DNA of 43,448 bases from an uncultured Atopobiaceae bacterium. GTDB lineage: Bacteria; Actinomycetota; Coriobacteriia; Coriobacteriales; Atopobiaceae. Numbering within the stretch: the first letter of the stretch is position 1; each line of letters begins with the position of its first letter. Positions 37,186 to 41,353 of this stretch are shown here, in pieces. Location of the stretch: the NCBI GenBank assembly GCA_947625235.1, contig CANQNP010000008.1, forward strand, positions 1 through 43,448. The letters are read 5' to 3'. Made by a program: the position numbers and the translations under genes. The notes below the pieces were generated by a model that saw only the letters and a list, made by a program, of their open reading frames with translations, ran no database searches and was not told the origin of the DNA.

Positions 37186-37260
37186 TGGGGCTTCGTCCAA
37201 CGGCTAGGACTCTGGTTTTTGGTGCCAGCTATGGGGGTTCGAATCCCTCAGCCCCAGCCA
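37186..37260 (+). tRNA. tRNA-Gln (anticodon TTG)
   Basis: A 75-nt cloverleaf. Acceptor stem TGGGGCT pairs with AGCCCCA, followed by discriminator G and an encoded CCA. The anticodon stem CTGGT/GCCAG encloses TTTTGGT, giving anticodon TTG, and the T-arm contains TTCGAAT. Reads CAA and, by wobble, CAG. It stands alone between glmU and the ArsR gene. Confidence 0.96.
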
Positions 37261-37388
37261 TCTTCCCCTCGTGTGGCCCGTCTTCTCGATTTTTCGCAGG
37301 TATCCGCCCCCCCTGAGCTCGCGCCTTGCCGAGCGCGTGGCTTTCGGGGAATCAGCCGATCGCCACGGTGGCGCGCCCGTGCGCGGGT

Positions 37389-37403
37389 GGTATAAGATAT
37401 ACC
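37389..37403 (+). promoter_or_regulatory. Operator-like palindrome overlapping arsR promoter
   Basis: GGTATA and TATACC form a perfect inverted repeat with a 3-nt centre. TATAAG (37391-37396) could be the -10 box, so regulator binding would block transcription. It lies 18 bp before the ArsR-family start codon, which fits autoregulation. Confidence 0.5.
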
Positions 37404-37420
37404 AAATGAGAGGAGGAGGT

Positions 37421-37804
37421 ATGAGATCTGCCGACATCCCTGCCCTCCTCAAGGCCCTCGGCAACGAGAACCGCATCGAGATCGTGCGGCTCATCGCGAA
37501 GTCGCCGGGCATCACGGCGAACAAGATCCTGAAGACGTTGCACGTCGCGCAATCTACGCTCTCGCATCACATGCACATCCTCGTCGAGGCCGGCGTGGTC
37601 ATCGCCGTTCGCGAGGGCAAATGGTCGCACTACTCCGTGAGTCCCGAGGCGCTCGATAGCATCGATCGCTTCGTGAACGGCCTGCGCGCCGATCGCTCGC
37701 AACGCGCCCGGCGCCTGCGCATGCTCCTCGACCTCAAGCACGACCCGCGCATGACGTCCAAGCTGCGCGATTCCATCGATCGCATCGTCGATACCCTCAG
37801 CTGA
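37421..37804 (+). CDS. ArsR-family transcriptional regulator
   Basis: 127 residues with a winged helix-turn-helix: LLKALGNENRIEIVRLI (9-25), the recognition helix VAQSTLSHHMHILVEAGVV (42-60) and the wing VREGKWSHYSVS. The typical metal-binding ELCVCDL cysteines are absent and the protein has no cysteine at all, so it probably does not sense thiophilic metals in the ArsR/SmtB way. Start at 37421 is fixed by GGAGGAGG; the frame runs to 37271 but would read through the promoter. It lies 55 bp before metQ1 and may co-regulate it. Confidence 0.85.
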   Translation: MRSADIPALLKALGNENRIEIVRLIAKSPGITANKILKTLHVAQSTLSHHMHILVEAGVVIAVREGKWSHYSVSPEALDSIDRFVNGLRADRSQRARRLRMLLDLKHDPRMTSKLRDSIDRIVDTLS

Positions 37805-37859: not shown

Positions 37860-38714
37860 ATGCTGCTCAGCCGAAGGGAGATCCTGCTGCTCGCGGGGGC
37901 GCTTCCCCTGGCGACGCTCTTCGGGTGCTCGGCTCCCGGCGCCGCCGATGCGGGAGAGGCGGACATCACGGTGGGCGCGTCGCACACCCCGCACGCCCTC
38001 ATCCTCGACGGTCCGGTGAGGGAGCTCCTCGAGGCCGAGGGCTTTCGCCTGGACATCGTGGAATACGAGAACTACGACGAGCCCAACCAGGCGCTCGCGG
38101 AGGGCGAGATCGATGCCGCCTTCTACGAGCATCGCCCCTTCCTCGACGCGTGGAACGCGGCGAACGGCACGAACCTCGAGGGGCTCGTCTCGGTGCACTT
38201 CGAGCCCCTCGGCATCTACTCCGACTCCGTCGATTCCATCGCGAACCTCGAGAAGGGCGCGACGGTGGCCATCCCGGCCGACCCCGCGAATCGCGCGCGT
38301 GCGCTCCTCCTCCTCGAACAGGAGCGCCTCATCACGCTCTCCGACGACGCGGGGATCGAGGTCGTGCCCGCGAACATCGTCGAGAACAGACGCGACATCA
38401 CGCTCGTGGAGGTGCCGGCCGAGGAACTTGCCGATGAGCTCTCGGAGGTGGAGCTCGTGGTGATGCCGGGAAACGTCGCCATGGAACACGGCCATTCGCT
38501 CGCCGACGCCCTCGCCGCCGAGCCCTTCGGCTCGCTCCTCGCGAACACCTACGCAAACCTCCTCGTCGTGCGTCCCGGCGAGGGCGACGATCCCAAGATC
38601 CAGGCCCTCGCGGCCGCCCTCAACTCCCAAGAGGTCCACGACTACATCGACCAATCCTTCGGCGAGAACGTCATATCGGTATTCGATCCCACGCCTCTCG
38701 ATTCGGAGATTTGA
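37860..38714 (+). CDS. metQ: MetQ/NlpA-family substrate-binding lipoprotein (copy 1)
   Basis: 284 residues. Signal peptide with lipobox TLFGC (Cys23 lipidated), then the MetQ/NlpA fold with ITVGASHTPHALIL, AFYEHRPFLDAWN and PADPANRARALLLLE. It captures methionine, or a related amino acid, outside the cell for the ABC importer. A second copy follows at 38981, with the permease and ATPase beyond it. The stop overlaps a promoter (TTGACG at 38711), so the downstream genes can be expressed separately. No ATPase or permease lies between the two copies, so copy 1 must share the transporter or be regulated differently. Confidence 0.9.
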   Translation: MLLSRREILLLAGALPLATLFGCSAPGAADAGEADITVGASHTPHALILDGPVRELLEAEGFRLDIVEYENYDEPNQALAEGEIDAAFYEHRPFLDAWNAANGTNLEGLVSVHFEPLGIYSDSVDSIANLEKGATVAIPADPANRARALLLLEQERLITLSDDAGIEVVPANIVENRRDITLVEVPAEELADELSEVELVVMPGNVAMEHGHSLADALAAEPFGSLLANTYANLLVVRPGEGDDPKIQALAAALNSQEVHDYIDQSFGENVISVFDPTPLDSEI

Positions 38715-38739
38715 CGATTTTGTGATGCTGCGCTAGGGT
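38711..38739 (+). promoter_or_regulatory. Promoter of the metQ2-metN-metI attenuator transcript
   Basis: TTGACG (38711-38716), a 17-bp spacer and TAGGGT (38734-38739). It overlaps the metQ1 stop codon (38712-38714). Transcription would start near 38746, giving a ~235-nt leader. Confidence 0.6.
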
Positions 38740-38781
38740 GTCCCGCGTCGTTTCGCTGCGAACCGGAGGAGGTGCCCCGCC

Positions 38782-38853
38782 ATGACCATGGCCATGTCCA
38801 TGTCCATGCCGAGCTCCCGGGCACCTCGTTTGGCGCGCGTGTTCGCCGCGTGA
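38782..38853 (+). CDS. Methionine-rich leader peptide
   Basis: A 23-codon ORF beginning MTMAMSMSMP, with Met at positions 1, 3, 5, 7 and 9, ending in TGA at 38851-38853. GGAGGAGG (38765-38772) lies 9 nt upstream, a strong ribosome site for so short an ORF. The peptide itself probably has no function; its translation senses charged methionyl-tRNA. Only 23 codons, so it is missed by usual length filters. Confidence 0.75.
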   Translation: MTMAMSMSMPSSRAPRLARVFAA

Positions 38854-38891
38854 TCTTTGGCGAAACCCTCCTCCAGGCGACGTGTTCGGGA

Positions 38892-38917
38892 GCTGCCTCC
38901 ACAGGGCAGCCTTTTTT
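38892..38917 (+). terminator. Intrinsic terminator of the attenuator
   Basis: GCTGCCT (38892-38898) pairs with GGGCAGC (38904-38910) around a 5-nt loop, CCACA, and is followed by C and six T residues (38912-38917). The right arm could also pair with GCTGCCC at 38920-38926. Confidence 0.8.
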
Positions 38918-38980
38918 CTGCTGCCCGATCCCGTTTTCGAATTCGCGCGTGTGCGCACCTGTGATCGAAGGAGAGAAACC

Positions 38981-39871
38981 ATGAAGAAGTCCATTTCCCG
39001 CAGGGCCGCCATCCTCGGCCTTTCCGCCTTCGCCGCCCTCAGCCTCGCCGCGTGCGGCGGCGCCCCCGCCACCGAGGAGGCCCCCGAGGCCACCACTCCC
39101 GAGGCCACCGAAGCGTCCGACACCACCATCACCGTGGGCGCGAGCCCCACTCCCCACGCGGAGATCCTGAACGGCCCCGTGAAGGAGCTCCTCGAGCAGC
39201 AGGGCTACACCCTCGATGTCGTCGAGTTCACCGACTACGTGCTCCCCAACACCGCACTCGAGGAGGGCGAGCTCGACGCGAACTACTTCCAGCACACGCC
39301 CTACCTCGAGAGCTTCAACGAGGAGAACGGCACGCACCTCGCGGCCGTCACGAGCGTGCACTACGAGCCGTTCGCGCTCTTCAGCGATAAGGTCGCGAGC
39401 GTGAAGGAGATCTCCGACGGCGCCACCGTGGCCGTGCCGAACGACACCACCAACGAGGCCCGCGCGCTCCTGCTCCTCGAGCAGGAGGGGCTCATCACGC
39501 TCGACGAGGGCGCGGGCGTGACGGCCACCACGAAGGACATCGTCGACAACCCCAAGAACCTGCAGTTCGAGGAGATCGAGGCGGCGAACCTGCCGAACGT
39601 GCTCCCCGACGTGGACCTCGCGGCCATCAACGGCAACTACGCCATCTCCGCGGGCCTCTCGCTCGATGACGCGCTCGCCACGGAGGACGCCTCGTCCCTC
39701 GGCGCCACCACCTACGCGAACGTCCTCGTGGTGCGCGAGGGCGAGGAGAACGACCCGAAGATCGTCGCCCTCGCGAACGCCCTCACGAGCCCCGAGACCT
39801 ACAAGTTCATCGAGGAGACCTACAACGGCGCCGTGGTGCCCACCTTCGAAGTGGCCGAGGCCACCGAGTAG
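38981..39871 (+). CDS. metQ: MetQ/NlpA-family substrate-binding lipoprotein (copy 2)
   Basis: 296 residues. Signal peptide with lipobox SLAAC (Cys25), an acidic Thr/Glu-rich linker (~26-47), then TVGASPTPHAEIL, ANYFQHTPYLESFN and PNDTTNEARALLLLE. These match copy 1 and the MetQ family, which binds methionine for the MetNI importer. Start at 38981 is set by AAGGAGAG at 38968-38975; an in-frame ATG at 38882 lies inside the terminator region and is rejected. It is the first structural gene after the attenuator and is followed by metN (30-bp gap) and metI. Confidence 0.92.
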   Translation: MKKSISRRAAILGLSAFAALSLAACGGAPATEEAPEATTPEATEASDTTITVGASPTPHAEILNGPVKELLEQQGYTLDVVEFTDYVLPNTALEEGELDANYFQHTPYLESFNEENGTHLAAVTSVHYEPFALFSDKVASVKEISDGATVAVPNDTTNEARALLLLEQEGLITLDEGAGVTATTKDIVDNPKNLQFEEIEAANLPNVLPDVDLAAINGNYAISAGLSLDDALATEDASSLGATTYANVLVVREGEENDPKIVALANALTSPETYKFIEETYNGAVVPTFEVAEATE

Positions 39872-39901: not shown

Positions 39902-40672
<771 letters not shown>

Positions 40673-40675
40673 CAG

Positions 40676-41353
40676 ATGGATTGGATTGCGGCTTTCTTCG
40701 CCGAATACGGCGGGCTCCTCCTCGAGGGCACGTGGGATTCCATCGTGATGACGACGGTGTCCTGCGTCTTCGCCTACGCGCTCGGCATCCCGCTCGGCGT
40801 GCTCGTGCTCATCACCGGCGAGGGGAACCTCCGGCCCAATCGCGCCGTGCACGCGGTGCTCGGGTGGATCATCAACGTGGGGCGCTCGATCCCCTTCATC
40901 ATCCTGCTCTTCTCCATCATCCCGTTCACGCGCCTCGTCGTGGGCACCTCGCTCGGCGTCCAGGGCGCCATCGTGCCGCTCGTGGTGTGCGCGACGCCCT
41001 TCGTGGCGCGCATGGTGGAGCAGAGCCTCGCCGAGGTGGACGCCTCGCTCATCGAGGCCGGCGAGGCCTTCGGCGCGAGCGCCTGGCAGCTCGTCTACAA
41101 GGTCTACCTGAAGGAGAGCCTGCCGAGCCTCGTGCGCGGCGCCTCCATCACGTTCATCACGCTCTTCGGCTTCGTGGCCATGGCCGGCTGCGTGGGCGCG
41201 GGCGGCCTCGGCGACATCGCCATCCGCTACGGCTACCAGCGCTACCAGCCCGGCGTGATGATCGCCGCCGTCATCCTCTGCGTCATCCTCGTCGAGGTCG
41301 TCCAATCCCTCGGCAACGCCATCTCAAAGGCGGTGGACAAAAGAACGAGATAG
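40676..41353 (+). CDS. metI: Methionine ABC transporter permease
   Basis: 225 residues with about five membrane helices. The cytoplasmic EAGEAFGASAWQLVYKVYLKE segment is the EAA loop that contacts the MetN ATPase. MetI-type features include GRSIPFIILL and GGLGDIAIRYGYQRYQP near the C-terminus. It imports methionine with MetN and the MetQ lipoproteins. The start follows metN by 3 bp. The stop at 41351-41353 is followed by ~60 bp of unremarkable sequence and the palindromic element. Confidence 0.93.
   Translation: MDWIAAFFAEYGGLLLEGTWDSIVMTTVSCVFAYALGIPLGVLVLITGEGNLRPNRAVHAVLGWIINVGRSIPFIILLFSIIPFTRLVVGTSLGVQGAIVPLVVCATPFVARMVEQSLAEVDASLIEAGEAFGASAWQLVYKVYLKESLPSLVRGASITFITLFGFVAMAGCVGAGGLGDIAIRYGYQRYQPGVMIAAVILCVILVEVVQSLGNAISKAVDKRTR

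Follow-up and report, generated by a model that had tools for sequence, protein, structure and literature searches.

A putative methionine-codon attenuator upstream of metQNI in an uncultured Atopobiaceae bacterium, an apparent member of a Cys/Met leader family of Coriobacteriales and Clostridia

The operon for the methionine ABC transporter of an uncultured Atopobiaceae bacterium is found on the forward strand of a stretch of 43,448 nucleotides, which was analysed as a whole and is referred to here as the window. It comprises three genes:

38981-39871 (+): metQ, methionine ABC transporter binding lipoprotein (PF03180, E 3.9e-92; the MetQ/NlpA family is the best NCBIfam match, below its cut-off)
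39902-40672 (+): metN, ATPase of the same operon (TIGR02314 MetN is the best match, E 1.4e-89, below the cut-off because the protein is short)
40676-41353 (+): metI, permease of the same operon (NF008049 MetI, 232 bits against a cut-off of 212)

A second, more diverged gene for a MetQ-type lipoprotein (37860-38714) lies directly upstream of the leader described below and shares its last nucleotides with the -35 box of the leader promoter. This first metQ paralogue is preceded by a gene for an ArsR-family regulator (37271-37804), a possible source of further control at the locus, and by a tRNA-Gln gene (37186-37260, anticodon ttg). The single metY of the same genome (L193) has no leader upstream. 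The interval in front of metQ contains a promoter, a short open reading frame (ORF) and several mutually complementary segments:

38711-38739 (+): leader promoter, with the -35 box TTGACG at 38711-38716, a 17-bp spacer and the -10 box TAGGGT at 38734-38739
38768-38774 (+): leader Shine-Dalgarno (SD) sequence GGAGGTG, 8 nt before the ATG, kept in relatives
38769-38777 (+): region 1, GAGGUGCCC, which overlaps the leader SD and is the 9-bp complement of GGGCACCUC at 38819-38827
38782-38853 (+): leader ORF, MTMAMSMSMPSSRAPRLARVFAA followed by a stop; 23 codons, with five Met within codons 1-9
38812-38824 (+): region 2, AGCUCCCGGGCAC, within the leader ORF, with region 1 or region 3 as partner
38882-38894 (+): region 3, GUGUUCGGGAGCU, the antiterminator 3′ arm GTGTTCGGGAGCT, which forms 13 bp with region 2
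38892-38917 (+): intrinsic terminator, GCTGCC-loop-GGCAGC at 38892-38910 and then T6 at 38912-38917; its 5′ arm overlaps region 3

The promoter, the SD, the 23-codon ORF, the three mutually exclusive pairings and the T6 terminator had been named in an earlier sequence-only reading of this DNA, and all of them were located at these places. The helix between regions 2 and 3 (helix 2:3) is composed of 13 contiguous base pairs, including two G-U pairs, and resumes past an interruption, which results in a duplex of -37.5 kcal/mol; it overlaps the terminator helix (3:4), so that the two are mutually exclusive. In helix 1:2, the leader's own SD serves as the 5′ arm. The leader RNA folds more stably than its shuffled versions (z -3.66), and none of 100 Markov-resampled windows contained an ATG start with five Met within nine codons. 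The real window holds only one other start of this kind, on the antisense strand of the same spot; this antisense run was rejected, since a GCC to GCA codon change in relatives disrupts it while the run of the forward strand is kept.

The conservation of these elements within the genus was assessed in five species, i.e., that of the window and G001, G002, G003 and G005, each with the leader before metQ. None of the five Met codons changes in any of these species. Among the remaining positions, codon 6 varies between Ser and Tyr and codon 8 among Ser, His and Tyr, codons 4, 10, 14, 16 and 20 show synonymous changes only, and the stop is either TGA or TAA. The TTGACG box and the 17-bp promoter spacing are retained in 5/5 members, and helix 2:3 is strong in every one of them (-29.5 to -37.5 kcal/mol). 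The alignment upstream of metQ in related genomes proposed by the sequence-only reading thus recovers the Met run and the 2:3 pairing throughout the genus; the terminator is clear in four of the five species and only weak in G001. The extra layer of control suggested by the same reading, an anti-SD (CCTCCTCC, 38867-38874), had to be abandoned: the sequence is present in the window, but just one of the four relatives (G003) has kept it.

The region is very probably a ribosome-mediated transcription attenuator of metQNI which senses charged tRNA-Met; we infer the stalling, the antitermination and the response to Met. According to this mechanism, upon scarcity of Met-tRNA the leading ribosome would stall at Met codons 3-9, between regions 1 and 2, so that helix 1:2 would be kept apart and region 2 would pair with region 3; the formation of 2:3 would block the terminator and metQNI would be transcribed. 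When Met is ample, the ribosome would reach the stop codon and cover region 2, leaving region 3 free for the terminator, and transcription would end. Since helix 1:2 traps the leader SD, a leader that is not translated would default to termination: 1:2 would form and the operon would be off. The sensor codons match the operon, since all five are for Met and the genes encode a Met transporter; a leader reading Met alone is what would be expected in front of such genes.

The metQ upstream regions inspected in other genera contain no comparable leader, which indicates that metQ is the wrong anchor for the comparison and that metY (O-acetylhomoserine sulfhydrylase) is the right one. In G049 and G022, which belong to another genus of the same family, a leader beginning MTTTTMMMCMRMLSSRAP... 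lies upstream of metY and presents the same SD, region 2 and region 3, plus a terminator. Leaders upstream of metY are found in several Coriobacteriales families, for example MDCQMCRMCQRMPASRACSG..., MKASYSNRFMMWCRMPYSRMC..., MARGFNTQMRCMMAGRMMCSRAF..., MTARTLMMMRMPSSRP... and MNCLPRRMPGSCLRPSA followed by a stop; a leader that recurs unchanged in a record named Eggerthellaceae (L211) suggests that this is one of the families. The leaders have in common the core CGA-AUG-NNNNN-CUCYCGG and, about 20-90 nt further on, the complementary CCGGGAG, and compensatory pairs are seen between the two segments (CUCCCGA/UCGGGAG, CUCCUG/CAGGAG, CUCCUGG/CCAGGAG, and CUCUCGG/CCGGGAG). Further covariance-model matches in the order precede metN (G017, L322) and a metE-type gene (G095, L362). 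Several Coriobacteriales leaders (Collinsella-like, G007, G269, and G285) are without a clear intrinsic terminator. The run of sensor codons is missing from some relatives, which carry at most one Met and one Cys codon. At L104, L105, L106 and L127, very short in-frame core ORFs (MSGRMPR and MRHTKRMPNSR, each ending in a stop) stand far upstream of metY. Other searches were less productive: the exact pattern of the genus returned the genus and g18 only, among chance matches, and model R1, built from 7 close sequences, gave many chance matches. L007 (G060 C27) was rejected as a leader, being a weak and unrelated match with a long ATGAGC/His-codon repeat, and other weak matches were attributed to chance.

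A scan of a named genome collection with the core pattern returned at least 118 stretches, overwhelmingly from Lachnospiraceae, Ruminococcaceae and other Clostridia, plus Eggerthellaceae. The pattern was exact, so that counts are lower bounds and the conservation of the CGA core is in part a search bias; the core variants CKM and CCCHRV occur outside the pattern, and the matches L209, L220 and L243 are evidently due to chance. The Clostridial leaders are rich in Cys and Met (...MCMCCCRM..SRA...), as in MKTFAINYNSMCMCCCRMLFSRAC..., MCCRMLNSRA...MAG and ...LLRSNFRCGRMLNSRT...MAG. Among the matches listed, Cys makes up 14.8% and Met 8% of the residues from start to core, an SD-preceded start is present in 72 of 76 loci, and the upstream SD-ATG sites are in frame and open to the core in 201 cases against 14 others (overlapping matches counted); this shared frame is kept over many distances between SD-ATG and core. 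A hairpin with a U-run right after region 3 is present in 57 of the 73 Clostridial loci among the matches listed, compared with 18 of 380 random places.

The genes downstream of the Clostridial leaders, again among the matches listed, are mostly metY, and also metQ, metN, metF and metA, as well as genes for cystathionine-synthase-family proteins, cystine-type binding proteins and amino-acid ABC permeases. Leaders are biased towards Met in front of metN, metQ or metE and towards Cys in front of the genes for cystine-type binding proteins, a difference with p 0.0009 (Mann-Whitney test, n = 10 and 7, uncorrected for phylogeny). Behind the most Cys-rich leaders, the gene at L344 (Lachnospiraceae bacterium AB2028, minus strand 3-1397) encodes by Pfam a family-3 (cystine-like) binding protein fused to a MetQ-type lipoprotein domain, perhaps a joint cystine/methionine binding protein; similar starts are found at L198, L208, L224, L225, L236, L245 and L251. 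The family leaders at L237, L239, L253, L227, L229, L265 and L272 are followed by genes without an obvious Met/Cys role, among others those for a Cons_hypoth698 membrane protein, a lipoprotein with no NCBIfam match and an amino-acid binding protein, and these could be new members of a sulfur regulon.

The relationship between the window leader and this group was also addressed with a covariance model (R2) built without the genus of the window, which gave the following match:

38806-38895 (+): model R2, 32.6 bits, E 2.1e-8 in the window and 8.7e-7 in the genome

Other copies in the same genome were sought with R1 and R2, and the window leader is the only strong R2 match there. Among 246 Actinomycetota genomes, R2 matched two, both of Coriobacteriales. 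In the order to which Clostridium porci belongs, matches that passed strict filters were obtained in 15 of 245 genomes, and each of the 30 Clostridial genomes in which the element was already known gave 1-5 matches. In 47 aligned sequences, from which the window genus was excluded, helix 2:3 is 97.7% paired and contains 20 two-sided changes against 6.1 in shuffles, a signal that collapses when the helix is slid. As helix 2:3 is partly fixed by the search pattern, its extension beyond the pattern provides an independent test: the cognate duplex has -9.24 kcal/mol and shuffled partners -6.43 ± 0.27. Helix 1:2 is likewise stronger for cognate than for shuffled partners, with -11.65 against -10.55 ± 0.21 in 94 leaders and, within Coriobacteriales, -17.8 against -14.9 ± 0.6 (22 leaders); in all these comparisons the shuffles retain the relatedness of the sequences.

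Taken together, sequence and comparison show a leader ORF with invariant Met codons, a terminator, a covarying helix 2:3, a helix 1:2 that recurs throughout the family and a link to sulfur-amino-acid genes. The Met-codon transcription attenuator of metQNI put forward by the sequence-only reading is therefore favoured on comparative grounds, i.e., invariant Met codons, conserved 1:2 and 2:3 helices, a terminator that is conserved although weak in one species, and homologous elements before other methionine genes. The window leader does not appear to be an isolated case, and these data support its membership of a large family of Cys/Met leaders across Coriobacteriales and Clostridia, with the core CGA-AUG-C....CUCYCGG ... 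YCGGGAG, which is apparently undescribed. Leaders of the window genus have S/H/Y-Met-Pro where the family often has Arg(CGA)-Met, and contain no Cys; the C-R-M core codons before region 2, common in the family and not universal, are absent from this genus. The best explanation seems to be that the genus carries a Met-only version of the family on metQNI, and that its relatives sense Cys and Met.

Three other explanations have to be weighed against attenuation by charged tRNA. The first is an arrest peptide, in which the core C-R-M-x-x-S-R would stall the ribosome through a nascent chain that senses Met, SAM or another small molecule, rather than uncharged tRNA, with the helices acting as described above. 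The retention of the R-M-x-x-S-R core even in very short leaders with few Met or Cys codons speaks for it. However, the S-R residues are accounted for by the RNA pairing of region 2, no C-R precedes the last Met in the window genus, other leaders have CKM or CCCHRV, some are just 7-11 residues long, the Met/Cys content of the leader tracks the target gene, and the search pattern itself contributes to the CGA-AUG conservation; we consider this explanation improbable. The second is that leader translation acts through Rho-dependent termination, or on the translation of the first gene, rather than through the intrinsic terminator. Some Coriobacteriales relatives do combine a leader and helix 2:3 with no clear terminator, but a hairpin with a U-run directly follows, and overlaps, region 3 in the window and in most Clostridial members, which makes this mechanism very improbable. 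The weakest is a metabolite riboswitch or T-box, i.e., a structured RNA that binds SAM, Met or tRNA directly and in which the short ORF plays no part: the same genes are indeed under the control of SAM riboswitches and Met T-boxes in other Gram-positives and the core nucleotides are highly conserved, yet Rfam gave no family match at gathering score for the window leader or its relatives (tRNAs and an unrelated sRNA match apart), nor any for 38600-39100 when E values up to 1 were admitted, so that neither of the RNAs which the sequence-only reading had regarded as refuting was found, the in-frame SD-ATG occurs at many distances, codons and not bases alone are conserved, and the conserved structure is one long alternative helix and nothing else, all of which leaves it extremely improbable.

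Several points stand against the reading as a Met-codon attenuator. Besides the weak terminator of G001, the Coriobacteriales leaders with no clear terminator and the relatives with few sensor codons, the counting of codons does not by itself account for the strong conservation of the CGA-AUG core, and starvation for Met should also slow initiation, which would favour helix 1:2 and termination. A broader and decidedly speculative proposal, which we hold to be doubtful as a whole, is that the sulfur-amino-acid regulon of Clostridia and Coriobacteriales is governed by one old class of leader RNA, whose fixed C-R-M core would serve to read charged tRNA-Cys and tRNA-Met. With the leader SD trapped in helix 1:2, such leaders would also read the supply of initiator Met-tRNA and so combine elongation and initiation signals, and CGA-AUG would add a programmed pause or arrest.

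SAM riboswitches and T-boxes are the usual explanation for the control of methionine genes in Gram-positive bacteria. Like the Met T-box of the Staphylococcus aureus met operon (PMC3771891), which responds to tRNA-Met charging, and the SAM riboswitches, which respond to SAM, the window leader would control methionine genes at the RNA level; these systems differ in that tRNA or metabolite is bound directly and no leader ORF is involved. The classical ribosome-mediated attenuators (trpL, hisL, leuL, ilv, and the actinobacterial trp and leuS; PMC1262725) resemble the window in their pathway-codon leader ORF, exclusive helices and intrinsic terminator, whereas here Met would be sensed (and Cys too in relatives), region 1 is the leader SD instead of leader codons, and the core is common to two phyla. 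Short Cys-codon ORFs before sulfur genes are known from the cys operons of Mycobacterium and Propionibacterium and from Bifidobacterium cbs (PMC1262725), and from uORFC-8-2 before cysS in Rhodobacterales (PMC8632094), but they belong to other taxa and genes, and neither Met codons nor the CGA-AUG/CUCYCGG core is described for them in the accessible parts of these sources; in the actinobacterial cases, the Cys codons lie at the stop and there is no terminator (PMC1262725). A candidate uORF of fthC in Streptococcus likewise links methionine supply to uORF translation in the accessible text of its report (PMC11109978), where, however, it is thought to sense initiation and to act on translation, in another gene and taxon, and no run of Met codons is reported.

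In a comparative survey, no RNA element was recorded upstream of methionine operons in Actinobacteria (PMC1262725), and the accessible parts of three structured-RNA surveys (PMC8632094, PMC11109978, PMC6429828) and of an attenuator survey (PMC2965389) contain nothing that fits. Phrase searches of the literature returned no prior description; subscription papers lay outside their scope, so an earlier one may exist. The sequence-only reading, which knew of no Met-codon leader of this kind, was thus right in that no earlier description was found and too narrow in its scope, given a Cys/Met family that spans Coriobacteriales and Clostridia. NCBIfam has no model for the leader peptides and, with the family missing from Rfam as well, the leader ORFs go unannotated.

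The leader also turns a puzzle into a testable question, namely how attenuation could respond to methionine, the single amino acid with which the translation of any leader has to begin. A conserved Cys/Met attenuator in two phyla, with many of the genomes from gut or rumen, would add a widespread layer to the control of methionine, cysteine and sulfide metabolism in these habitats.
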